Of a stretch of DNA of 64,000 bases, positions 54,416 through 64,000 are shown piece by piece. The DNA comes from Winogradskyella eckloniae. Lineage in GTDB: Bacteria; Bacteroidota; Bacteroidia; Flavobacteriales; Flavobacteriaceae. A program made the position numbers and the translations under genes. The notes beneath the pieces are model-generated. The model made no database searches. It was not told the origin of the DNA and saw only the letters and a program-made list of their open reading frames with translations. Position 1 is the first letter of the stretch. Every line of letters begins with the position of its first letter. The stretch spans positions 114,807 to 178,806 of the forward strand of contig NZ_JABRWP010000007.1 of assembly GCF_013249045.1 (NCBI RefSeq). The letters run 5' to 3'.

Positions 54416-54555
54416 CTTGTAGTAACCTTTAAGTTGTGCCTTTATAGATGTCTATAAGGACCTATTTAGCGTATAAAATCGAATAGCATCCGCTACCCAA
54501 ACATTTGTAATTTGGCTAGAATTAGCCATTGGTTTTATAGGATGATGCGGTTTTA
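54416..54555 (-). repeat. attC-like element 1 (degenerate, array end)
   Basis: Right half GGCTAGAATTAGCCATTGGT-TTTATA matches the core of element 5 (GGCTAGAACTAGCAATGTAT-TATA). The left half is diverged. It follows the stop codon of the DUF6090 gene and marks the distal end of the array. I find no matched outer arm here. Confidence 0.45.
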
Positions 54556-55332
54556 TTATTTTTTTTCTTTCAGTTCAGATTCAATTAAATTCATTATCTC
54601 GTTTGAGTAATCTAACATTTTAACATACAAGTTTAATCTGTTATTTTCAACACCCATTTTCATTAAAAGTGGGTGTAAAATATTTGGGTTTTGATATAAT
54701 TCTATTAATTTTTTATTCTGAAGTTCAGTATCTTTTTTAAAGACCTTGCTTAAACCAAAAGACTGCTTAATTCTATTGTTTAAAAATAATCCTCCAATTG
54801 ATTTAAATTCATTATGTATACTATTTATTAAATCCATGGACAATGTTTCATCCTCAAATCCTTGATTTATCTCAGCAGAAAATAAAGCTAATTTTGATTT
54901 AAGCGTTTCGCTTTTCAATATTTTTATATCGCCACTGCCAATTAATGCTTGATAGCTTCCTATAACAGGTTCGGCTCTAAAATAATTAAAAGCGCCAAAG
55001 TAGATAAATGTACCAATAGAATCTCTTTTGTATTGTAAATCTTTTTTTTCTAAGCATTCTATAAGAGATTTACAATTATCAATCACAAAGGACTGTTTAT
55101 CGACGATGTCTGCATATATTTTATTGTTCTCTATAAAATCTTTTTGTAGCGTTTTAAGTATTAATAATTCGTTCTTTTCTTCTTGTTGTTTTTCATTCCA
55201 ATTGTTAATGCTTAATGCAATTAATATACCTATTACAACGAGTACAATTTCTCCGATGGCATAAATGAGATATTTATTAAATTTATTTTCGGAGAGTAGT
55301 TGTTGTCTTATACGTCTAAAGAATTTTATCAT
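54556..55332 (-). CDS. DUF6090-family membrane protein (cassette J)
   Basis: A 258-residue protein. ATG at 55332 gives MIKFFRRIRQQLLSENKFNKYLIYAIGEIV, followed by one membrane helix (about 21-41: GEIVLVVIGILIALSINNWNE). That is the N-terminal signature of DUF6090. A cytoplasmic or periplasmic helical domain follows. The frame from 55362 would add ten residues out of the repeat. Function unknown. It is the last cassette before the flanking plus-strand genes. Confidence 0.8.
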   Translation of the reverse strand: MIKFFRRIRQQLLSENKFNKYLIYAIGEIVLVVIGILIALSINNWNEKQQEEKNELLILKTLQKDFIENNKIYADIVDKQSFVIDNCKSLIECLEKKDLQYKRDSIGTFIYFGAFNYFRAEPVIGSYQALIGSGDIKILKSETLKSKLALFSAEINQGFEDETLSMDLINSIHNEFKSIGGLFLNNRIKQSFGLSKVFKKDTELQNKKLIELYQNPNILHPLLMKMGVENNRLNLYVKMLDYSNEIMNLIESELKEKK

Positions 55333-55344
55333 TGGTTGGTGGTT

Positions 55345-55478
55345 TCTGGTAACGATGTACAACGTGAATGGTTGTGCAACTAAGTTAGCAAACTTTTATT
55401 AACCCTTGAATATTACATAGTTGTTTTTCAATGTAAGCAAAAACAAACAATTACTTATAGCTATTGTTGCGCAAGTAT
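55345..55478 (-). repeat. attC-like element 2
   Basis: Contains GTTGTGCAACTAAGTTAGCA-AACTTTTATTAACCC, the type-1 core shared with elements 3, 4 and 9. It lies between the stop of the 173-residue membrane protein and the start of the DUF6090 gene. Its outer arms are less clear than in elements 6-9. Confidence 0.6.
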
Positions 55479-55480
55479 TT

Positions 55481-56002
55481 TTAAATTTTCTTTAGAATCC
55501 AATTCGATATTTTTTGAATTCGAAATATTATAATTAATGTTAAAATCGTTTTTATAATATATTTAGCAAATGCAAAATTTGGTAATTCTATTTCTTCGTT
55601 ACCATTTAATTTTGAAATAAATTTAATACAGTAATCAATCAAATCAGGAATCTGATAAATTAATTTTGCTAACCAAATAACGCCAACTGTCAATAAAATC
55701 AGTTTTGTCAGCGATTCGACGTTTAGTTCCATTTTTATTTCTTTTTCAGATTTAATTAGTTTTTTAGCAATCCATTCTGCTTTTATAAACAGAAATAGGG
55801 AAACAACAATGTTGGCTATTGTCATAAATGTTCCTGTGAAATAGAATTTGTCGATTGGTTCGTTAAAAACAGTTTCAAAATGAGTCATCATAGTAGCTCC
55901 ATAAATTGTAAAGAAATAGGAGCCAAAATGGTCAAAAATTTTAGTGAATAAAAAAATTCCGGCTATTCTAATAGTAAGAGCGGATAAAACTCGGTTTGTC
56001 AT
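55481..56002 (-). CDS. hypothetical four-helix membrane protein (cassette I)
   Basis: A 173-residue protein with four hydrophobic segments (about 5-30, 55-75, 95-115 and 145-165) and short charged loops. It may resemble small Bacteroidota DUF2975-type membrane proteins, but I cannot assign a family with confidence. Flanked by attC-like elements 2 and 3 and encoded on the array strand. Confidence 0.65.
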   Translation of the reverse strand: MTNRVLSALTIRIAGIFLFTKIFDHFGSYFFTIYGATMMTHFETVFNEPIDKFYFTGTFMTIANIVVSLFLFIKAEWIAKKLIKSEKEIKMELNVESLTKLILLTVGVIWLAKLIYQIPDLIDYCIKFISKLNGNEEIELPNFAFAKYIIKTILTLIIIFRIQKISNWILKKI

Positions 56003-56019
56003 GAATTTTCTATTTTGGG

Positions 56020-56150
56020 CTTTTGTTACAAATCGGTTTTAGTTAGATGTAAATGCGTGGCTATGCAACTAAATTAGCAAACTTTTATTAACCAGAGAAA
56101 ATTACGAAGCGAATTTATAGGTAGTGCTGGCAACGGGCTTTTATGGTGTC
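56020..56150 (-). repeat. attC-like element 3
   Basis: Core GCGTGGCTATGCAACTAAAT-TAGCAAACTTTTATTAACC near 56055-56093, and the distal GTGCTGGCAACGGG near 56123-56136. The TGGCAAC here pairs with GTTGCCA at 58252-58258, the right border of the same multi-gene interval. Confidence 0.6.
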
Positions 56151-56156
56151 TGATCT

Positions 56157-56585
56157 TTAATAAGTCAATTTAATTTCATAAGTTGTTAGGCCATATCCTG
56201 AACTTCCTAAATTTTGATTGATTACTGTCCAATCTTCATTCTCAACTGGTGATAAGATTGAAAAGGGGTTAATCAAATCTTGCGATTCATAAAATTTAAT
56301 TTCACTAAATGAATTTTTTGGGGCTGGATTAACGCCAATTATGCCATCTTCAAAAATTTTGAAAGATGTGTTTTTTTCTATAACATCAGTTGTATCTATT
56401 TCTAATCCTAATTCTTCAGATTTCTGATAAATTATAATAATATCTTTATTTGTTTCATTATTTATAAAATACTCTGCAGCACCAGCTGGTTCAATAATTA
56501 TATTATCATCGCTATTTTTACTACAGCTACTTGTTAGAATAAGAATAAATAATATGTATCTTTTTATTAAATTGAATAATTTCAT
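56157..56585 (-). CDS. hypothetical lipoprotein
   Basis: A 142-residue protein with a lipoprotein signal (FILILTSSCSKNS, lipobox C near residue 21). The mature part is acidic and beta-rich with no recognised motif. It lies at the 3' end of a four-gene interval (56157-58242) bounded by elements 3 and 4. The 126-bp gap before the next gene upstream holds no clean repeat core. Confidence 0.65.
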   Translation of the reverse strand: MKLFNLIKRYILFILILTSSCSKNSDDNIIIEPAGAAEYFINNETNKDIIIIYQKSEELGLEIDTTDVIEKNTSFKIFEDGIIGVNPAPKNSFSEIKFYESQDLINPFSILSPVENEDWTVINQNLGSSGYGLTTYEIKLTY

Positions 56586-56711
56586 AATTTTTTTTAAGGC
56601 CTAGGTCGTTCTGTTTTTGCGGACTTGTTTGTTTTGCTAATATTCATGGTTATATGCTGGTTGTAGTCTATAATAAATCAACAGATTTTAACACTTTGAA
56701 AAGTTATTAGT

Positions 56712-57305
56712 TTACATCGTTTTTTTACCCTTAATAACCCAAGTTTTCAAACTTTTGTCTGTGCTTTCACATGGTTGTAGCGATAAAGCTCTAGACATAT
56801 ATGGTCCGGCATCGTCACTTTCGCTTCCGGCCGCAAGACAAAGATTACTGTCTTCTTTTGGTCTGAATTCTCCACTTTCTTTATTATATATAAATTTTTG
56901 TTTTGAAGATTGAGGGTCACTTTTTACAAGGCTTATTGTCATTCCTATTTTTGGTCCTCCAAGCATTGCAGCACAGAAACCAGGATATGTGGCAGAGCAA
57001 ATCTGTTGTGTTTTATCATCATAGTAAAATAGAACATCGTCGCCATTGGGTTTGCAAGAATGCACATGTAAGGTGTCATTAAAGCCTCTATTCTTTGTGT
57101 CTATACAATAGCCTAACTGGTCGCGCTCATCTAAATTATCCGCGAGATAGATTATAGGTTCTGGCGATTTAATATTAGGTACATTTGAAGTAGGATTTTC
57201 TTGGGTTTCAGTCTTTGGGGTTTCAGTTGCAATTTGTTTTTCCTTTTTAATTGAGTTGCAGCTCATACATAGGGAAAACAATAAAATTGGTATTAGATTT
57301 TTCAT
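56712..57305 (-). CDS. lipoprotein with ricin-type beta-trefoil-like domain
   Basis: A 197-residue protein. The lipoprotein signal (LFSLCMSCNSIKK) has the lipobox Cys at 16. A Thr/Pro-rich linker leads to a domain with LGYCIDTKNRGFNDTLHVHSC, then a YDDKTQQICS strand, and later SNLCLAAGSESD and MSRALSLQPC. These repeats of CxD...H/C...QxW-like strands fit a ricin-type carbohydrate-binding trefoil. Ligand unknown. Part of the four-gene interval between elements 3 and 4. Confidence 0.7.
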   Translation of the reverse strand: MKNLIPILLFSLCMSCNSIKKEKQIATETPKTETQENPTSNVPNIKSPEPIIYLADNLDERDQLGYCIDTKNRGFNDTLHVHSCKPNGDDVLFYYDDKTQQICSATYPGFCAAMLGGPKIGMTISLVKSDPQSSKQKFIYNKESGEFRPKEDSNLCLAAGSESDDAGPYMSRALSLQPCESTDKSLKTWVIKGKKTM

Positions 57306-57369
57306 TGGTATTTGTTTTAAAGTTATACAAGAGTATGCTTGTTTTTATTCAGTTCAATTATTCTCTAAA

Positions 57370-57669
57370 TTAATTTAAAAATAGACTTGCTAAAATTGGC
57401 AAAATTCCAAAAATGACAAGTCCAACTATTGAAGTCCAACATTGATAATTTTTCTTTTCTTTTTTTATGGAACTAAAAATTATAAAAATCAGACTCAATA
57501 AAAGTAAAACTGTTCCTAAAATTCCGAAATGAAATATAACTTCTGCTGTGTTGCCTCCTGCATTAAAGATACTGGTGTAGCTGATTGTTAGATAAAAGGA
57601 AATAACATTTATTATTACAATCCAAATCATAAAATGAAATGCCCATTTTTTAAAATTTATGCTATTCAT
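57370..57669 (-). CDS. small three-helix membrane protein
   Basis: A 99-residue protein with hydrophobic segments at about 8-28, 40-62 and 75-97, separated by short loops (SYTSIFNAGGNTAE; SSIKKEKKNYQC). No family recognised. It starts 6 bp after the lipoprotein gene upstream, so the two are co-transcribed. Confidence 0.65.
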   Translation of the reverse strand: MNSINFKKWAFHFMIWIVIINVISFYLTISYTSIFNAGGNTAEVIFHFGILGTVLLLLSLIFIIFSSIKKEKKNYQCWTSIVGLVIFGILPILASLFLN

Positions 57670-57675
57670 TTTAAG

Positions 57676-58242
57676 TTAGTTTTTCAGTTCGTTTTTATAC
57701 AATTCTGCTATTTTATTTCTTTCGTTTTCGTTTTTTAAAATATTTTGAAGCCACATTTGTGGTTGGTCTGTTGCATTTCCATATTCTCTATCCTTATATT
57801 CTTTAAATTCCGAAAAGTCAAGCCAATTCTTGTTGTGAATATGCTGAAGGGAATAAACAGCCATTTCTCCATTAGTTGCTCCAAAAAATGGGCAAGTATG
57901 TACTTTGGTTATAGTTGTGTCAGAAAGTTTGGTGATAAGAAAATTGGTCAATTCCGTTTTGTCATTTTTCGCAAACTTTTCCCATTCTTTTTCACTAAAA
58001 ACCATAGTTGGAATTTTTCTCTTTTTTTCTGTGACATATTGTGTTCCACCTAAACAGCCTCCTTTTTCAAAGACCATAAAATTCCACTGTTCAGCAATTG
58101 AATCTGTTTGTTGAATTTCAGGCTGAAAAAAATCTTTACTCAATTCAGCAGTTTCAATGCTCAATTCAGGTTTTGATTCCGATTGAGTTTTACACGAAAT
58201 CAAAGTTAAAATCAAAAGCAATATGTTAAATGCATGTTTCAT
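57676..58242 (-). CDS. hypothetical lipoprotein (cassette H, first gene)
   Basis: A 188-residue protein with a lipoprotein signal (LLILTLISCKTQ, lipobox Cys at 17). Visible strings are FEKGGCLGGTQYV and KVHTCPFFGATNGEMAVYSLQHIHNKNW, but no family is recognised. Two Cys may pair. Its start lies 7 bp from element 4, whose GTTGCCA arm is complementary to TGGCAAC after the 56157 gene. Confidence 0.65.
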   Translation of the reverse strand: MKHAFNILLLILTLISCKTQSESKPELSIETAELSKDFFQPEIQQTDSIAEQWNFMVFEKGGCLGGTQYVTEKKRKIPTMVFSEKEWEKFAKNDKTELTNFLITKLSDTTITKVHTCPFFGATNGEMAVYSLQHIHNKNWLDFSEFKEYKDREYGNATDQPQMWLQNILKNENERNKIAELYKNELKN

Positions 58243-58248
58243 TTTCAG

Positions 58249-58385
58249 CTTGTTGCCATAGTGTTTGTTTACGATGAGTTGCGTGGTTAAGCAACTAAGT
58301 TAGTAAACTTTTGTTAACTCGATAAAATTGCGACGGAGTTCTTGCAAATTGGCCATTGATTATAGGCGACTTAAGTTTGTATTTC
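58249..58385 (-). repeat. attC-like element 4
   Basis: Contains GTTGCGTGGTTAAGCAACTA-AGTTAGTAAACTTTTGTTAAC, the type-1 core; the GTTGC/GCAAC arms form a small hairpin inside it. TTGGCCATTGATTATAGGCG at the other side resembles the GGCT..AACTAGCAAT end of the other elements. Confidence 0.65.
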
Positions 58386-58392
58386 ACTAAAT

Positions 58393-58878
58393 TTATTTTA
58401 GCGGTATTTTAATGGCTTTAACTTCAAAATTTAATTCTCCATTTCTATCGATACAAGATCCACAAAATTCTATATTTATTTTATTGTTCACTATTTCTCC
58501 GAAAGCAATAGATTTGATATTTGCTCTTTTTGCATATCCTGGGAAATATAATGTTGATTCTTGACTAATTTTTTCGCTTAATTTAAGATGCTCTAAATCT
58601 TTAAAATTTGGGTTCAGCCTTAGATTGCCAATTGTAATGAGGTGTTGAGTATCAAAATCATATTTGGTGTAATTTAATTCCAAATTGAGAACAAGTATTG
58701 GATTCTCTTCTGTTTGAATGATATTGGTTTCATTAATTAAACTTGGAATCAAAGAGGAAGGTACCGAGAAAATTAACTCAATGATAAAGTTGTCATCTTT
58801 TAATGAAATATAATTATTTGATGTTCCTTCTAATAGTGGAAGTTTATATGCTTTGTTTTTATATGTAAATTTTAGCAT
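58393..58878 (-). CDS. hypothetical protein (cassette G)
   Basis: A 161-residue soluble protein without signal peptide. It is beta-rich and opens MLKFTYKNKAYKLPLLEGTSNNYISL. A CGSCIDRNGELNF string near the end has two Cys. I recognise no family. Bounded by element 4 downstream and, upstream, by about 500 bp that hold a gene remnant and element 5. Confidence 0.6.
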   Translation of the reverse strand: MLKFTYKNKAYKLPLLEGTSNNYISLKDDNFIIELIFSVPSSLIPSLINETNIIQTEENPILVLNLELNYTKYDFDTQHLITIGNLRLNPNFKDLEHLKLSEKISQESTLYFPGYAKRANIKSIAFGEIVNNKINIEFCGSCIDRNGELNFEVKAIKIPLK

Positions 58879-59025
58879 TTTGTTTTAATTACTGTCTTTG
58901 GGTAATATACGAAAAGTAAGTAATTTTCTAGCAAGATACTTTCTGCTAAGCACAATGTTGGGTAGGAGCCAAACGGTTTGTTTTACTGCTGTTTTGCCTG
59001 TTTTTATGTGTGTTTTATTGGGTTT

Positions 59026-59190
59026 TTATTTTTCAGTTGTTTTAAATTCAATCACATATGGTTTTAACGGAATACTTTTTTTTGTCCTAAAATTGTTTCC
59101 GATTAATATTTGATATTTTTTATTCGGTTCTAATTCTACTGGTATTGTCCAAGACATATTATCTTTTACCCAACGTGTTTGTTTAGTTAG
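59026..59190 (-). pseudogene. C-terminal remnant of a bacterial Ig-like (Big_5-type) protein
   Basis: The 501-bp gap between genes contains an open stretch with no start codon. It reads LLTKQTRWVKDNMSWTIPVE, then LEPNKKYQILIGNNF, IPLKPYVIEFKTTEK and stop. The LEPNxxYxxxI...PLxPYxxxF(K/T)T layout is that of the end of Big_5/SbsA-type Ig-like domains. An in-frame stop lies just upstream, so this is a truncated cassette gene. The rest of the gap (58879-59025) holds only degenerate repeat sequence such as CTAGCAAGATACTTTCTGCT. Confidence 0.55.
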
Positions 59191-59255
59191 TAATACATTT
59201 ATTTATATGAAGACAGAAGAGAATTATAACCTGTTTTGGAATTACAGATCTAGTA

Positions 59256-59376
59256 CGTGTTTTTTTTGTGTATAAAAGCACCTAGGTTAGCAAATTAAAA
59301 CCAAATAGAAAATTCGATAGGATTTTTGCGAGTAGGCTAGAACTAGCAATGTATTATATGCGGTGTTGTAAAACGT
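59256..59376 (-). repeat. attC-like element 5
   Basis: Type-2 core: GGTTAGCAAATTAAAACCAA, ATAGAAAATTCGATAGGATT, then GAGTAGGCTAGAACTAGCAA. Outer arm GTTGTAAAAC at 59365-59374 is 9/10 complementary to GTTTTACGAC at 60241-60250, on the other side of the DUF4259-like gene. Confidence 0.75.
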
Positions 59377-59379
59377 TTT

Positions 59380-60216
59380 TTATTTTAATTGCCACCATTT
59401 TTTTCGTTTTATCAACTTGTCAATTGAAAATGATTTAGTTATTCCGTTTGTCTTTTCATATTTCAATTGTTGATTTACTGGCTCAATAATATGTTGCCAA
59501 CCTCCTGAAAAACTTGCTCTTATTTCAGTTCCATTCGGTGTGTAATTTCTCTCGATTGGAATTTTTCCAATATTTTCAAACAATTCGGCAAAGTCTTTTT
59601 TGTACATTTTTGGTAAATACCAAGTTACTTTTGACTCTTCTTTCCAATTCCCAAAACTTACAACTAAAACATTACATTTTTTAAAATCAGAAACTGTTGG
59701 CTTACTTGTCTGATTTATTCTTGTTGTAACAATTAGATTGTAACCAAAACCTGTATCAAAGTCAGATGCTAAAACGATTCCGCCACCATAATTTCCATTT
59801 TCCAATTTGAATGTTAAGCAACTTCCTTTATCAAATATTGGTTTTTTCTTGGAAATTCTCTTTCTAGCTTTTGGTTTTGCCTTCTCAGATTCTAATTTTA
59901 TCAAAAATTTATCAAGAACAACTTTTCTTTTCTTTATGTCAGATTCGCTTGCATCAAGTTCTTTCCAAACTTTTAAATCAGATTCACTTTCGATTATTAC
60001 CCGAACTTTTTCCAAAATGTCATTTGGCAAGCTTTTAGTTTCCCAAAGAGCTAAAGCCAATGTAAACCAAAAGTCATTTGTTCCGTTTGGATTGTCGGAA
60101 ATCAATTTGTTTTTGATTTCAGTTGGTTCTTTTCCGTCATTATACAAATGAAAAAAGTCAGCATAAATATCTGCTGAAGTATCATTACTTTTTATGGCTG
60201 TTCCCCAAGTTCCCAT
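59380..60216 (-). CDS. DUF4259-like plus Imm26-like protein (cassette F)
   Basis: A 278-residue protein. Residues 1-95 (MGTWGTAIKSNDTSADIYADF, later FWFTLALALWETKSLPNDI and SDLKVWKELDASE) match DUF4259. A lysine-rich linker (AKPKARKRISKKKP) leads to a beta-rich domain (FDKGSCLTFKLENGNYGGGI, YNLIVTTRINQTSKPTVSDF) like immunity protein Imm26. Such proteins usually neutralise a secreted toxin, but no toxin gene is adjacent. Both assignments are from memory. Confidence 0.7.
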   Translation of the reverse strand: MGTWGTAIKSNDTSADIYADFFHLYNDGKEPTEIKNKLISDNPNGTNDFWFTLALALWETKSLPNDILEKVRVIIESESDLKVWKELDASESDIKKRKVVLDKFLIKLESEKAKPKARKRISKKKPIFDKGSCLTFKLENGNYGGGIVLASDFDTGFGYNLIVTTRINQTSKPTVSDFKKCNVLVVSFGNWKEESKVTWYLPKMYKKDFAELFENIGKIPIERNYTPNGTEIRASFSGGWQHIIEPVNQQLKYEKTNGITKSFSIDKLIKRKKWWQLK

Positions 60217-60240
60217 TTTAGTTCGTGGTTTTGTTCAAAT

Positions 60241-60378
60241 GTTTTACGACGTGCTTGTATAAGATTAGATATGTGTTTTAGCGATTAACTTTGCAAGAAC
60301 ACATCAAACTGAAAATTTGCAAGGATTTTTATAAGTAGGCTCGCACCAGTAATTAATTATATTCGTTGTTGTAAAACG
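60241..60378 (-). repeat. attC-like element 6
   Basis: Runs from arm GTTTTACGAC (60241-60250, pairs back to element 5) to arm GTTGTAAAAC (60368-60377, pairs with 61273-61282 across the next gene). The core has GCAAGGATTTTTATAAGTAG then GCTCGCACCAGTAATTAATT. The middle is more diverged than in elements 7 and 8. Confidence 0.75.
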
Positions 60379-60382
60379 TTTT

Positions 60383-61270
60383 TTATTCTTCGTCAATTTC
60401 AGACATTCTTTCATTTATAAACTCAAAAAATCCAATTTCTCCAGAGATTTCCCAAACTTCGTGGTCCCAATCAACTGTTGAGTTTCCATTGTTTTTGTAA
60501 AAGCATTGTGCATTTCCAGCTCCATCAGGGAAGAATTCAAGTAAATCGTCAAATGAATAACCTTCTGGTTTAACATTTTGCTCTTTGCAAATTGGATTCA
60601 TCATTTCTGCCATAACTTTAATATCCTCGTTTGCCATTACAAAGTTAGCATCATAGATTTCTCCAAATCCATTATGGATTTTATAAAAAGTTTTTAAGTC
60701 ATTAGGAATGTCCCAATTAAATGCTTTTAGATTTTTATTTGGTTCTGCATTTACAATAGGTTCTCCTCCAGTATATATTCGGTAGTAATCTCTATCATCA
60801 TAAAGCTTCATATTAAGTAAATAATGTAAATGCCAAGTGTTTTCTTTTTTCTCTGCAAAAATGAATTGACACCTCTCTTTTAATGAAGAAATCAGATTTG
60901 GAATTTTCTTTGAAATTGGTTTAAAGTTTTCGGTTATGAATTCCGTATTTGTTTTGCTGTCTAAATCCGACCAAGGACAGTCTTTTGGTAATTCTCCAAG
61001 CTTGTAAAAATTTGAGCTATTTCTTGATTCAAATACAAGTTTAATTCCGTCAAAACCATATCTATTTATGATTTCATTTTCTAAATTAGTCGTACGTATG
61101 AATTCTAGATTGAAGTCTTTTTCAGAATCTCTTTTCAATTCGTTTCTGAATTCCTCTTTTAATTCAGAAGTCAGGTTTTCATAATCGTTCTTTTTATTAT
61201 TCTGACTATTGGCTCCGAAAAAAGATAGTATTCCCATTATTAAAATTATATGTTTCAATGTTTCACTCAA
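60383..61270 (-). CDS. SMI1/KNR4-like (SUKH) protein with N-terminal extension (cassette E)
   Basis: A 295-residue protein. The N-terminus (LKHIILIMGILSFFGANSQ) looks like a signal peptide, which is unusual for this family; the start codon is TTG. The C-terminal half (from about 180: FNWDIPNDLKTFYKIHNGFGEIYDANFV, then DLLEFFPDGAGNAQCFYKNN and DHEVWEISGEI) has the SMI1/KNR4 layout. SUKH proteins are typical immunity proteins against nuclease toxins. No toxin gene is near. Confidence 0.7.
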   Translation of the reverse strand: MSETLKHIILIMGILSFFGANSQNNKKNDYENLTSELKEEFRNELKRDSEKDFNLEFIRTTNLENEIINRYGFDGIKLVFESRNSSNFYKLGELPKDCPWSDLDSKTNTEFITENFKPISKKIPNLISSLKERCQFIFAEKKENTWHLHYLLNMKLYDDRDYYRIYTGGEPIVNAEPNKNLKAFNWDIPNDLKTFYKIHNGFGEIYDANFVMANEDIKVMAEMMNPICKEQNVKPEGYSFDDLLEFFPDGAGNAQCFYKNNGNSTVDWDHEVWEISGEIGFFEFINERMSEIDEE

Positions 61271-61272
61271 AT

Positions 61273-61410
61273 GTTTTACAACATGTTTGTATATGGTTTG
61301 TTGCGTGGTTAATCAACTAAGTTAGCAAATAAAAACCGAATAGAAAATCTGATAGGATTTTCGTAAGTAGGCTATAACTAGCAATGAATTATACACGCTA
61401 TTAGCACAGG
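61273..61410 (-). repeat. attC-like element 7
   Basis: Starts with GTTTTACAAC (61273-61282), a perfect 10-bp complement of GTTGTAAAAC at 60368-60377. The core is GTTGCGTGGTTAATCAACTA, AGTTAGCAAATAAAAACCGA, ATAGAAAATCTGATAGGATT, then GTAAGTAGGCTATAACTAGC and AATGAATTATACACG. It ends with TTAGCACA (61401-61408), which pairs with element 8. Confidence 0.85.
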
Positions 61411-61413
61411 TTT

Positions 61414-61863
61414 TTATCCATCAATTGTCATATATTCAGGTTTCATTCCAATAAAGTCTATCGAAACAGAATGTCTCATTGGATTTGAATAATATGTTAT
61501 CGACCATTCAGTTTTCTCATTTTTGATTTTTCCGATTGATATTCCTTCAAATTCAAATTCCACGTCAAAATTTTCGATTCCAGAGTTGATTACGTTTTCT
61601 TTCAATTTTTTTCTTAAAAACGGAAGAATTATATGTTCTTTAATTACAGAGTATTCATTATCTAACTTTTTGAAAAAATCTTTTTGCTCAATCGTTGGTC
61701 CGTTTTCGTCCGCACTAAGATTTATTCCGATTTCCTCTCCTTGGAATTTAGTTTGTCCGTCGTAAAAATTTTTAGAGGAATCTTTGAAGGTTGTATATCC
61801 TAATTCTCCAAATACGTCATCTACAAACTTTGGTTTTTTCTTAAAAATGTCAAATATTCCCAT
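61414..61863 (-). CDS. hypothetical protein, DUF6985-like (cassette D)
   Basis: A 149-residue soluble protein without signal. It opens MGIFDIFKKKPKFVDDVFGELGYTTFKD; FDDVFGEL-type openings followed by a beta-rich half and a helical half recall DUF6985, but this is a weak recall. Bounded on both sides by the two most similar repeat elements (7 and 8). Confidence 0.65.
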   Translation of the reverse strand: MGIFDIFKKKPKFVDDVFGELGYTTFKDSSKNFYDGQTKFQGEEIGINLSADENGPTIEQKDFFKKLDNEYSVIKEHIILPFLRKKLKENVINSGIENFDVEFEFEGISIGKIKNEKTEWSITYYSNPMRHSVSIDFIGMKPEYMTIDG

Positions 61864-61878
61864 AGTTAATTTTTAATT

Positions 61879-62014
61879 TGTGCTAACGGTTTTGTGTATT
61901 ATTAATGGCGTGTTATAGCAACTAAGTTAGCAAATAAAAACCGAATAGAAAATCTGCGAGGATTTTTGTAAGTAGGCTTTAACTAGCAATGAATTTAAAC
62001 GGTGTTGGCATTAG
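61879..62014 (-). repeat. attC-like element 8
   Basis: Starts with TGTGCTAA (61879-61886), the exact complement of TTAGCACA in element 7. The core is nearly identical to element 7: GCAACTAAGTTAGCAAATAA, AAACCGAATAGAAAATCTGC, GAGGATTTTTGTAAGTAGGC, AACTAGCAATGAATTT. It ends with GTTGGCATTA (62004-62013), which pairs with element 9. Confidence 0.85.
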
Positions 62015-62019
62015 TACTT

Positions 62020-62559
62020 TTATTTCCATTCCCAATTCAATTCATTTACGTATTCTAAATTTATATCAGAAAATAATTTTTTAAATTTCTCTTGGTCAGA
62101 TACGGCTCGTTTAGGAATGATTAAGGATAATTCAGATTTGAGTCTTAAAAAGTAATAGTCTTTTAATTCAATCAGCTTGTCAAATTCCGAATCTTGTATT
62201 TTTGTTTGAGTTCCAAAATCAGAGGCCTCTATAAAATCAGCGTCTTTGTCAAAGTTTAGAGTAGCCTTTTTTCCAATTCTATTTTTATAATTTTCTTTTA
62301 TATGCTTTTCAAAGTGCTTTTTGTATTTCCATTTAGAGTATAATGGATAAAACAAAAACCATAAAACTGCAAATCCAAAGAACGCTATAGCAAGTTCAGT
62401 TTTTTTAATAAACAAAATAAATGCCCCAAGAATGATGTAAATTATAGGAACAACAATTCTTGACTTATTTCTATTCTTTTTATGCAATTCAGATTTAGAA
62501 GATACATAAAGCTGATATTCTAAAAAATCCGAGAAGTTTAATGTGTATTCTAATTTCAT
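62020..62559 (-). CDS. YcxB-like membrane protein (cassette C)
   Basis: A 179-residue protein. An N-terminal soluble strand region (MKLEYTLNFSDFLEYQLYVSS) leads to two adjacent membrane helices (about 33-49 and 53-72). A C-terminal YcxB-like domain follows (NFDKDADFIEASDFGTQTKI, DYYFLRLKSELSLIIPKRAVSD). Such proteins have unknown roles and often occur as orphans. The gene is framed by a perfect 10-bp inverted repeat. Confidence 0.78.
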   Translation of the reverse strand: MKLEYTLNFSDFLEYQLYVSSKSELHKKNRNKSRIVVPIIYIILGAFILFIKKTELAIAFFGFAVLWFLFYPLYSKWKYKKHFEKHIKENYKNRIGKKATLNFDKDADFIEASDFGTQTKIQDSEFDKLIELKDYYFLRLKSELSLIIPKRAVSDQEKFKKLFSDINLEYVNELNWEWK

Positions 62560-62566
62560 TTCGTAT

Positions 62567-62712
62567 TAATGCCAACGAGTTTGTATTAGATTAGTTGCGT
62601 GGTTAAGCAACTAAATTAGCAAACTTTTACGAACCCGTGAAAATTCCATAGGAATTTTCTCAAGTAAGCACGTAAAAAGCAATTAATTATACACGATGCT
62701 ACCCTACGTTTT
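62567..62712 (-). repeat. attC-like element 9
   Basis: Starts with TAATGCCAAC (62567-62576), a perfect complement of GTTGGCATTA in element 8. The left half is the type-1 core (GTTGCGTGGTTAAGCAACTA, AATTAGCAAACTTTTACGAA). The right half is type-2-like (AAAATTCCATAGGAATTTTC, then GCAATTAATTATACACGATG). It ends in GCTACCCTACG, partly complementary to GTTAGGTAACGT in element 10. Confidence 0.8.
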
Positions 62713-63204
62713 TTCTTTTTTGAGCGTAATTATAATTCCGTTTTTCCTTATAAATTTGATATCGTCTCCTTCGAAATCTTTAACTGTTTTAATATTTTCT
62801 TCCTTAAACAAGTAGGTAGGCACTATTTTCGATTTTATTATTAAAGAGTCAGAAGTCAGTTTTAGAATTTCGTATGGAAAACCAACGTCATATTCGAAAG
62901 CAATTAATTCAGTTCCATCAATCCAGAATTTTTGATAATCGTTGCAATTCTGTTTTGTTTTTTTATTTAAATATACTCTTAAAATTCCGTATTCGTCAAA
63001 TTCAAATATTGAATTCAGTTCCATTCTCTCACAGAATGAAGGATGTTCAAATGGTAAGAAATTTGAATGAGTAACTTTCCATTTTCCAATCAGTTTTTCA
63101 TACTGTTCGGTTTTCGGAAGTTTTTCTTTTTTTTTAAAGTAATCGCAACTCAAAAAAGTCAGAATAAAAACTATGAATGATATGTAGAATGTCGTTTTTT
63201 TCAA
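62704..63204 (-). CDS. lipocalin-like lipoprotein (cassette B)
   Basis: A 166-residue protein with a lipoprotein signal (FIVFILTFLSCDYF, lipobox Cys at 20) and a start at TTG 63204. The mature part begins LIGKWKVTHSNF, the G-x-W strand typical of lipocalin-like and META-type beta-barrels. It continues with ELNSIFEFDEYGILRVYLNKKTKQN, LIAFEYDVGFPYEILKL and further strands. Ligand unknown. Confidence 0.7.
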   Translation of the reverse strand: MKKTTFYISFIVFILTFLSCDYFKKKEKLPKTEQYEKLIGKWKVTHSNFLPFEHPSFCERMELNSIFEFDEYGILRVYLNKKTKQNCNDYQKFWIDGTELIAFEYDVGFPYEILKLTSDSLIIKSKIVPTYLFKEENIKTVKDFEGDDIKFIRKNGIIITLKKEKT

Positions 63205-63411
63205 ATGTTAGGTAACGTATTGTGTATGAAACGTAGCGTGTATAAAGACGCTAATTTTTCAGGTTAACATAGAGCCAAATTGTAATATTTTGTTTTTAAT
63301 TTTCATCTTTTGAAAAGCCAAATTAATAATTTGGCGGACTTTCTTAATATACACAAACCTTTCGATTAGGCACTTATTAGCTATGTTTTATACACCGTGT
63401 TGTACCACGTT
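63205..63411 (-). repeat. attC-like element 10 (long form)
   Basis: Its outer parts match the family (TTGTGTATGAAACGTAGCGT, TATAAAGACGCTAATTTT at left; TAGCTATGTTTTATACACCG then TGTTGTACCACG at right). The middle is longer and holds a separate palindrome GCCAAATTAATAATTTGGC at about 63317-63335. It separates cassettes B and A. Confidence 0.65.
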
Positions 63412-63872
63412 TATTTACTTTTCAATTTATATTCTTTCATTAAATTTAGTAACTCCTCAGTTTTTATATTATAAGAGGACTGAACAGCTCCTTCTTTCCC
63501 AGACAAAAATTTCGCGACTTTTTTTCCGCTAATCCACTTTTTATGTTCATCAGTATAATCAAAGAAAATCATCTTATTTCCATTTATATGTCCTTGCCTA
63601 AATTCCTTGACATCATCCCATTTTGTGAAGTTAGAACGAAACAAATTCTTCGTTTCAAATCCTTCATCAGTCAATTTCAAATATGAAGCATTAGGATGAA
63701 ATTGAATAAGTGAGACAATTATACCAAGTCCAAAAAAAGAAATTATAAACCATCCCATTAATGTTTTGTCTTTCAACATTAAAATTCCGATTGTAACAAA
63801 AACAGAGGAAATCAAGAATAATATTAAGTTTTTTAACTTGTTTTGTTTAAATATTTTAGGTTCGTTTCTCAT
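63411..63872 (-). CDS. STM3941-like membrane protein (cassette A)
   Basis: A 153-residue protein with two membrane helices (about 16-29 and 37-57) after a basic N-terminus. A PH-like domain follows (YLKLTDEGFETKNLFRSNFTKWDDVKEF). The layout recalls the STM3941 family; function unknown. Its ATG lies 2 bp from the apparent end of an IS3-family element, so its native upstream repeat element is displaced. Confidence 0.72.
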   Translation of the reverse strand: MRNEPKIFKQNKLKNLILFLISSVFVTIGILMLKDKTLMGWFIISFFGLGIIVSLIQFHPNASYLKLTDEGFETKNLFRSNFTKWDDVKEFRQGHINGNKMIFFDYTDEHKKWISGKKVAKFLSGKEGAVQSSYNIKTEELLNLMKEYKLKSK

Positions 63873-63874
63873 AA

Positions 63875-64000
63875 TGTCTAGTCCTGAAATATGGCTACAG
63901 GTTAAAAATTGATTTACGCTGTTTTTAAATATACCATATTTGGTGTTTTATAATCTAAAGATACATGTAATCTTATTTGGTTGTATAGATTGATTGCACT
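63875..64000 (-). mobile_element. right end of an IS3-family insertion sequence
   Basis: The last 126 bp carry the 3' end of a transposase gene and about 39 bp of end sequence beginning TGTCTAGTCCTGAAATATGG at 63875, a plausible terminal inverted repeat. The other end is outside the window, so the terminal repeat and target duplication cannot be checked. Confidence 0.65.
63914..64000 (-). CDS. IS3-family transposase (OrfB), C-terminal 28 residues
   Basis: The open frame running off the right edge reads SAINLYNQIRLHVSLDYKTP, then NMVYLKTA and stop. The string YNQIRLHxSLDYKTPxxVY is the standard C-terminus of the IS3-family DDE integrase (rve domain) after the catalytic glutamate. It is partial only because the window ends. 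It reads in the same direction as the cassette genes. Confidence 0.8.
   Translation of the reverse strand, partial: SAINLYNQIRLHVSLDYKTPNMVYLKTA

Follow-up and report, generated by a model that had tools for sequence, protein, structure and literature searches.

A Probable Integron-Like Gene-Cassette Array with a Xer-Like Recombinase in Winogradskyella eckloniae and Other Flavobacteriales

Introduction

Chromosomal integrons, which comprise the integrase IntI, its attI site, and an array of cassettes bearing attC sites, are the described systems closest to the locus considered here, a run of small genes and palindromic elements at positions 54,416 to 63,872 of a 64,000-nucleotide stretch of DNA from the flavobacterium Winogradskyella eckloniae (assembly GCF_013249045.1, contig NZ_JABRWP010000007.1; the whole stretch is hereafter the window, and its contig C27). 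Excerpts of one paper argue that the additional I2 domain of IntI and the extrahelical bases of attC co-evolved as the integrons' solution for recombining folded single-stranded sites, and name the origin of integrons as a chicken-and-egg problem (PMC4792948). With regard to the phylum, the survey made with IntegronFinder 2.0 gives, in the portion consulted, one complete integron in Bacteroidetes proper, that of Salinibacter ruber (PMC9024848), and two reviews, in the portions consulted, list the phylum and give no detail (PMC8618304, PMC9668308). Among open-licence papers, no report was found of cassette arrays with a non-IntI recombinase in Flavobacteria.

On the evidence of its sequence, the window very probably holds part of a chromosomal cassette array that works like an integron, the units of which are likely moved by a Xer-like recombinase without the IntI insertion. 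Judged in this way, the system is integron-like in its working, yet it is not an IntI integron. The initial annotation had proposed an integron-like array, which the bracketing arms, the recurring cassettes, and the recombinase with its candidate attI now bear out; its further suggestion of a distinct system agrees with a recombinase that is Xer-like and not IntI.

Cassettes and Their Boundaries

The array contains 13 open reading frames (ORFs) of at least 99 amino acids, all on the minus strand between 54,556 and 63,872 of the window. A covariance model, R1, was built from 31 elements of the same genome and detected nine attC-like sites in the window (55,342-63,410; 132-206 nt; E-values 5e-7 to 3e-34), all with one orientation with respect to the genes. 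The training set included four of these, which were thus matched by construction; the other five were independent of it. The palindromic elements in a single orientation between one-strand genes, as first described, are therefore present; ten elements were listed at that time, and R1 detects nine sites. The window elements align with one another and with copies found by BLAST elsewhere in the genome. Such a covariance-model search had been proposed in the initial annotation, and R1, a model of our own, gave 56 matches in the whole genome at E <= 1e-4, one of them an opposite-strand echo, which leaves 55 places. Many of these are grouped in runs of one orientation, frequently at the ends of contigs (C21, C6, C23, C3, C24, and C27).

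In integrons, the piece located 3' of G^TT belongs to the next cassette. By this rule, the outer arm of a site should find its complement in the far arm of the following site rather than within the same site. The comparison drew on 48 of the 55 sites of the own genome and on 135 from relatives, and consecutive pairs were at most 2.5 kb apart. Across one gene, the R' arm of a site and the R'' arm of the following site matched over 6 of 6 nt in 92 of 106 pairs (21/26 in the own genome and 71/80 in relatives). The two arms of the same site (n = 159) matched over a mean of 2.3 of 6 nt, with a full match in four, and the opposite arm combination reached means of 2.2 (own) and 1.9 (related), with a full match in 1 of 106; the mean for random arms was 2.1.

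Whole cassettes were compared as 109 intervals between consecutive detected sites, with a median of 791 bp (range 358-2452 bp, upper limit set at 2.5 kb). Copies that are nearly identical turned up in the same genome, in two species of a single genus, and in two different genera. A gene order shared by related strains without cassette gain or loss had been named in the initial annotation as a refuting outcome; at the level of genomes, species, and genera, the picture is instead one of whole cassettes that reappear in different places. A 358-bp cassette occurs as five copies at different places in the own genome (L038, L041, L042, and L043; 94-97% identity), a cassette of about 500 bp has three copies across two Winogradskyella species (96-98%), and one cassette is shared by Xanthomarina and Gelidibacter with 98.7% identity over 840 aligned bp. 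At the left junction, identity begins at CGTT in all three sets, and at the right junction it stops at CGTT or one base past it in two of the three.

An ORF of at least 60 amino acids is absent from 22 of the 109 intervals; where present, the longest one is encoded on the strand of the array in 86 of 87. Family scans of 96 cassette proteins (13 from the window and 83 of 85 others) revealed no shared function. DUF6090 was matched by five proteins, and SMI1/KNR4, PF00144, and cation efflux families by two each, while single proteins match reverse transcriptase, chloride channel, sulfatase, and SUKH families. In PADLOC, the 25 families listed, of 186 in all, each matched one cassette protein.

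The Recombinase and a Candidate attI

A 377-amino-acid tyrosine recombinase is encoded on contig C21, directly upstream of a one-direction array and in the same direction. A search for a recombinase elsewhere in the genome had been proposed at the outset, and it is this Xer-like enzyme that was found. An attC cluster lacking an integrase nearby (CALIN) had also been considered; this holds for the window alone and fails for the genome, where the recombinase stands directly upstream of the C21 array, as it does in 39 related loci. By eye, the end of another putative transposase at the start of C21 (L038, 1-110) seemingly interrupts the last site of the C21 array.

Relatives of the recombinase were collected from named genomes, and 80 of 91 loci were kept. 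Around them, 131 elements lie downstream, all on one strand, vs. four upstream (all in L077), although the upstream sequence examined was more than twice as long as the downstream one; these counts refer to the best 150 of 152 R1 matches, with opposite-strand echoes removed. A downstream element was found in 39 of the 80 loci, in 33 of the 40 whose downstream sequence reaches 2 kb or more, and in 21 of the 22 in which it reaches 5 kb or more. The layout with the recombinase upstream of the array thus recurs across Flavobacteriales. As a control, the six other tyrosine recombinases of the own genome were inspected, five of which (L001, L003, L005, L006, and L007) have no element within 1.5 kb on each side. 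Among divergent relatives (35-47% identity), nine loci have elements, seven of them downstream and with a candidate attI (6 or 7 of 7 nt in the arm).

An attI-like junction was sought in 34 loci with a nearby first site, the own locus included, by taking the best match to the 7-nt arm of the first cassette in the sequence that follows the integrase; among the 39 related loci, six were left out because the first site was more than 2.6 kb away or its anchor was unreadable. The arm matched over 7/7 nt in 27 loci and 6/7 nt in seven. In 33 of the 34, the match lies 42-123 nt after the end of the integrase match, with L132 at 946 nt. Since the search took the best match in a stretch, this near-constant position weighs more than the match itself. 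A candidate attI that carries the junction of the first cassette is therefore located beside the integrase, and it differs between recombinase groups. Upstream of the junction, a perfect or near-perfect palindrome is seen by eye in many loci, for example GGATATAGACTATAGTCTATATCC, the sequence of which varies between loci.

These observations bear on the proposal that the cassettes are real and are moved by some other enzyme, such as host XerC/XerD, or by recombination of similar sites, the neighbouring recombinase only marking the point of insertion. The BLAST-found sites are 69-95% alike, so that homologous exchange is possible, and some genomes have arrays and no detected recombinase. Homologous exchange, on the other hand, would yield neither arms that pair across each gene nor a first-cassette arm at a near-constant place after the integrase, and the dependence of the candidate attI on the recombinase group also speaks for the neighbouring enzyme. 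Movement by another agent is accordingly considered unlikely.

Relation of the Recombinase to IntI

The C21 recombinase scores 191 bits with the IntI model TIGR02249, the cut-off of which is 265, and 235.5 bits with the XerA-type model NF040815, above its cut-off of 220. The public name of NF040815 includes "integron integrase" and is borne by several of the 120 relatives listed; the name therefore does not distinguish IntI. The spacing between the catalytic Lys and the HxxR motif is 65-67 residues in the 42 close relatives (of 47) for which it could be measured and 65 in 7 of the 14 divergent relatives, vs. 107 in 21 of 26 IntI proteins. The region in which IntI carries its insertion is thus shortened by about 42 residues (24 residues vs. 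67 in the alignment with VchIntIA), and the IntI-specific additional (I2) domain is absent from the C21 recombinase and from those relatives with the short spacing. In VchIntIA, this stretch includes residues that contact the extrahelical bases, according to excerpts of the structural work (PMC3053210).

The residues R236, K261/K264, H325, R328, H351, and Y360 are invariant in 39 aligned rows. Their catalytic roles are presumably those of the tyrosine recombinase family in general.

A quick tree of 66 rows, which contained two Xer rows, 24 of the 47 close relatives after thinning, and IntI rows from the same phylum only, placed the 26 IntI rows on one side of a branch with a Shimodaira-Hasegawa-like approximate likelihood ratio support of 100; the divergent L069 joins them via a long branch, and 22 of the 63 inner branches are weakly supported, with long branches. 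The unconstrained tree sets L069 beside IntI, and a constraint that joins the close and divergent recombinases gave a p-value of 0.499 in the approximately unbiased test, by which such a grouping is neither rejected nor demonstrated. The predicted fold (predicted local distance difference test score 84, predicted template modelling score 0.56) is closest to XerA, followed by VchIntIA and XerH. An extra N-terminal domain (residues 1-80) shows weak likeness to the N-terminal part of archaeal XPB helicases and to the HARP domain of SMARCAL1.

It could be proposed that the locus is an ordinary integron whose true IntI has been lost or lies elsewhere, as in a CALIN, and that the neighbouring Xer-like recombinase is incidental. 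The logic of the array, the predicted bottom-strand folding (see below), and the GTTR cores resemble attC; true IntI does occur in the phylum, with 84 of 296 genomes above the TIGR02249 cut-off; and some genomes have sites and no detected recombinase. Against this, the own genome gave no IntI match (TIGR02249) at E <= 1e-60, and of the 85 genomes of the phylum with a match at that level none belongs to the same order and one to the same class. The Xer-like recombinase stands upstream of arrays in 39 loci, and the sites misfit GTTRRRY and have no conserved extrahelical base. An ordinary integron is hence a very unlikely explanation.

Structure of the Sites

The bottom strand of the sites, i.e., the one opposite the genes, forms a consensus structure at -16.5 kcal/mol; of its 21 pairs, 11 show two-sided changes (alignment A2). 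Folding of the top (gene) strand was also tried and was weaker, at -3.4 kcal/mol with 12 pairs, eight of them with two-sided changes (alignment A1, with slightly different 32 rows). In the bottom-strand consensus, 94% of 650 cells are paired, and none of 500 shuffles, which ignore relatedness, attains any of five measures; the structure of the elements is beyond chance. Consensus-pair cells hold 114 G/T and 17 A/C combinations, a count favoured by the derivation of the structure on the bottom strand. When single sequences were folded as DNA without the consensus, the bottom strand gave the more stable fold in 41 of the 43 sites of the own genome and in 101 of the 113 from relatives (142/156), whereas 57 of 139 control segments favoured the bottom strand and 76 the other. 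The bottom strand is thus predicted to be the better-folding one.

The stem between the cores has 16 pairs and is uninterrupted in 16 of 31 sites, with at most one mismatch in 21. No conserved extrahelical base was seen in this stem, whose sole unpaired column is filled in 4 of 31 sites. Between the stem and the core pairs lies an asymmetric loop, with 5 nt on one side (4 nt in four rows) and 2 nt on the other. As for the classical RYYYAAC/GTTRRRY consensus, a poor fit had been remarked upon from the start, and the cores follow GTTR only: the base directly after GTT is A or G in 162 of 165 cases, whereas a purine stands at position 2 in just 73/163 and at position 3 in 85/162.

Being repeated, structured, and intergenic, the palindromes might also be taken for mobile repeats of the miniature inverted-repeat transposable element (MITE) or repetitive extragenic palindromic (REP) type, or for RNA elements such as terminators. 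They have one orientation in arrays and are placed at cassette ends, their outer arms pair across genes and not inside the element, and the better fold is on the strand without the gene message in the 142 of 156 sites given above. A search of the window stretch and of L038 and L041 gave no Rfam family above the cut-off. Elements scattered singly in a MITE pattern, which would have spoken against the original proposal, were not the main picture obtained, as the elements form one-orientation runs at gene boundaries. Such repeats or RNA elements are consequently an extremely improbable explanation.

The Array in the Window

The ends of the cassette at 62576..63215 were set by analogy with G^TT inside CGTT. 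The features are as follows, the plus strand being the one predicted to fold.

63205..63410, plus strand: attC-like site 1, 206 nt with a long inner part (R1 1.0e-13, outside the training set)
62565..62709, plus strand: attC-like site 2 (R1 3.2e-34, training set)
61876..62015, plus strand: attC-like site 3 (R1 4.1e-30, training set)
61271..61411, plus strand: attC-like site 4 (R1 8.1e-34, training set)
60239..60379, plus strand: attC-like site 5 (R1 2.4e-27, training set)
59234..59376, plus strand: attC-like site 6, outer 3' arm decayed (R1 8.9e-14, outside the training set)
58249..58380, plus strand: attC-like site 7, decayed (R1 4.3e-15, outside the training set)
56023..56156, plus strand: attC-like site 8, decayed (R1 5.0e-7, outside the training set)
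55342..55477, plus strand: attC-like site 9, decayed (R1 1.1e-10, outside the training set)
63411..63872, minus strand: first cassette gene kept in the window, 153 amino acids; no upstream arm seen beside the contig end
62576..63215, minus strand: putative cassette with ORF 62704-63204 (166 amino acids, lipoprotein-like by eye); arms 5/7, by eye
61887..62575, minus strand: putative cassette with ORF 62020-62559 (179 amino acids); arms GGCATTA/TAATGCC, 7/7
61282..61886, minus strand: putative cassette with ORF 61414-61863 (149 amino acids); arms AGCACA/TGTGCT, 6/7, by eye
60250..61281, minus strand: putative cassette with ORF 60383-61270 (295 amino acids, SMI1/KNR4 domain); arms GTAAAAC/GTTTTAC, 7/7, by eye
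59256..60249, minus strand: putative cassette with ORF 59380-60216 (278 amino acids); arms GTAAAAC/GTTTTAC, 7/7, by eye
54556..59255, minus strand: distal decayed part of the array, with ORFs 54556-55362 (DUF6090), 55481-56002, 56157-56585, 56712-57305 (ricin-type lectin), 57370-57669, 57676-58242, and 58393-58878

Read by eye, the arms thus give three pairs with 7/7 (one also obtained via automatic anchors), two matching over 6 nt, and one with 5/7, the rest having no clear match; in the distal decayed part, a 6-nt match is retained by the arms at 58,25x and 56,13x. Toward the right (60-63 kb) the sites are the best preserved, and those on the left (55-59 kb) are decayed. R1 found no match at the left end (about 54.4-54.6 kb), at 56586-56711, or at 58879-59060; some window genes therefore have no detectable site.

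The right end of the window (64,000) is also the end of contig C27 (base 178,806) in a draft genome of 3.69 Mb in 29 contigs. What looks by eye to be the end of a transposase gene lies beside this contig end (window 63880-64000). Given this transposase-like end and the lack of an upstream arm of the first cassette there, an insertion may have cut the window array.

Distribution among Genomes

R1 matches occur in all 25 genomes of the genus (the own one included), with 3 to at least 79 matches each, and in 30 of the 40 relatives searched; the recombinase is matched at E <= 1e-60 in 19 of the 25. Among 148 genomes of the order, 27 have both, 16 elements only, 15 the recombinase only, and 90 neither (p 1e-8), a co-occurrence figure that is rough because the genomes are related and the site-search filters were stricter in this set. 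The recombinase is present in 14 of the 18 genomes of the order with at least four sites.

One relative assembled in two contigs (G005) has at least 149 R1 matches, some of them in a run that spans about 25 kb and starts less than 2 kb from the recombinase gene. Its contig C2 carries one-strand sites from 0.8 to 43.2 kb and is a piece of an array or perhaps a separate replicon. On its contig C1, the sites are mostly on the plus strand at 0.38-2.79 Mb and on the minus strand at 3.59-4.36 Mb (with one exception), roughly following the GC skew, which would fit arrays with a constant orientation to replication; the GC-skew sampling is noisy.

Proposed Mechanism and Points against It

From these sequence patterns, we infer both the enzyme activity of the recombinase and a strand-level mechanism. 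Briefly, the bottom strand of a site would fold while single-stranded, and the recombinase would pair the folded site either with attI, double-stranded and palindromic, or with a second folded site. It would then cut one strand at CGTT, and replication would resolve the junction. In an excised circle, the two matching arms would be rejoined, which would add 6-7 bp to the hairpin stem. Entry of new cassettes would take place beside the recombinase, and decay would affect the oldest ones, at the far end, as seems to be the case in the left half of the window.

Several observations weigh against a cassette system driven by this recombinase. Some concern the sites and junctions: 15 of the 183 sites were dropped from the comparison of bracketing arms because their AAC or GTT anchor was unreadable, and in the Winogradskyella set of repeated cassettes the right-side identity stops about 5 nt before CGTT, in the loop-forming spacer. 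Others concern the recombinase loci. No downstream element was found in 41 of the 80 loci (the contigs of 31 of the 80 stop within 1 kb after the gene), and L127 has none in 8 kb of downstream sequence. In the own genome, a different tyrosine recombinase of 405 amino acids adjoins two elements in another arrangement (L004, C3:98669-99205), and two of the nine divergent-relative loci (L065 and L069) show the opposite arrangement. The array contig C27 and the integrase contig C21 are unjoined in the draft assembly. With regard to distribution, 6 of the 25 genomes of the genus have elements and no recombinase match at E <= 1e-60, the match in G009 carries a stop codon, and in the order the recombinase match is absent from 16 of 43 element-bearing genomes and the element match from 15 of 42 recombinase-bearing ones.

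Two details belong to these loci. In the repeated cassette of L082 and L088, the 5 nt before the right CGTT vary between copies while the surroundings are conserved; this spacer may be exchanged or altered during recombination. The L004 recombinase resembles a mobile-element integrase.

Flavobacteriales may well have evolved integrons a second time, with a Xer-type recombinase without I2, folded single-stranded sites without extrahelical bases, a reactive strand marked by wobble pairs and an asymmetric loop, and a cassette pool shared by many genera that IntI-based surveys have left unreported. A cassette system without I2 and extrahelical bases would represent another solution to the recombination of folded sites, or an intermediate, and is directly testable. 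If the role of the recombinase is true, the system would give bacteria a second means of exchanging genes in cassette form. With sites in all 25 genomes of the genus and at least 149 matches in a single genome, a large marine gene-exchange pool may be uncounted.

Comparison with Known Systems

With chromosomal integrons, the system shares a one-orientation array of mostly unrelated one-gene cassettes, some cassettes without an ORF, an attI (here a candidate) beside the integrase, sites that form bottom-strand hairpins (here predicted), and a junction at or near CGTT (G^TT in integrons). It differs in that the recombinase has no IntI insertion and scores below the IntI cut-off, and in that the sites have a GTTR core without RRRY and no conserved extrahelical bases. 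In addition, the candidate attI is located 3' of the integrase gene, often at a double-stranded palindrome, and the cassettes are codirectional with that gene.

XerA/XerC/XerD-like recombinases (NF040815; PDB 4a8e and 5hxy) provide the best match in sequence and fold, over about residues 104-376, and likewise have no IntI insertion, but the recombinase described here has an extra N-terminal domain of about 80 residues and adjoins cassette arrays. The integration of CTX-phi by host XerCD, as treated in excerpts of PMC4792948, also involves a Xer-type recombinase without I2 that acts on a stem without extrahelical bases; in that account, CTX-phi has no integrase of its own, no attI, and no cassette array. 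Finally, the window segment alone resembles a CALIN in being an array without an integrase, whereas this genome and its relatives have a recombinase directly upstream of such arrays.

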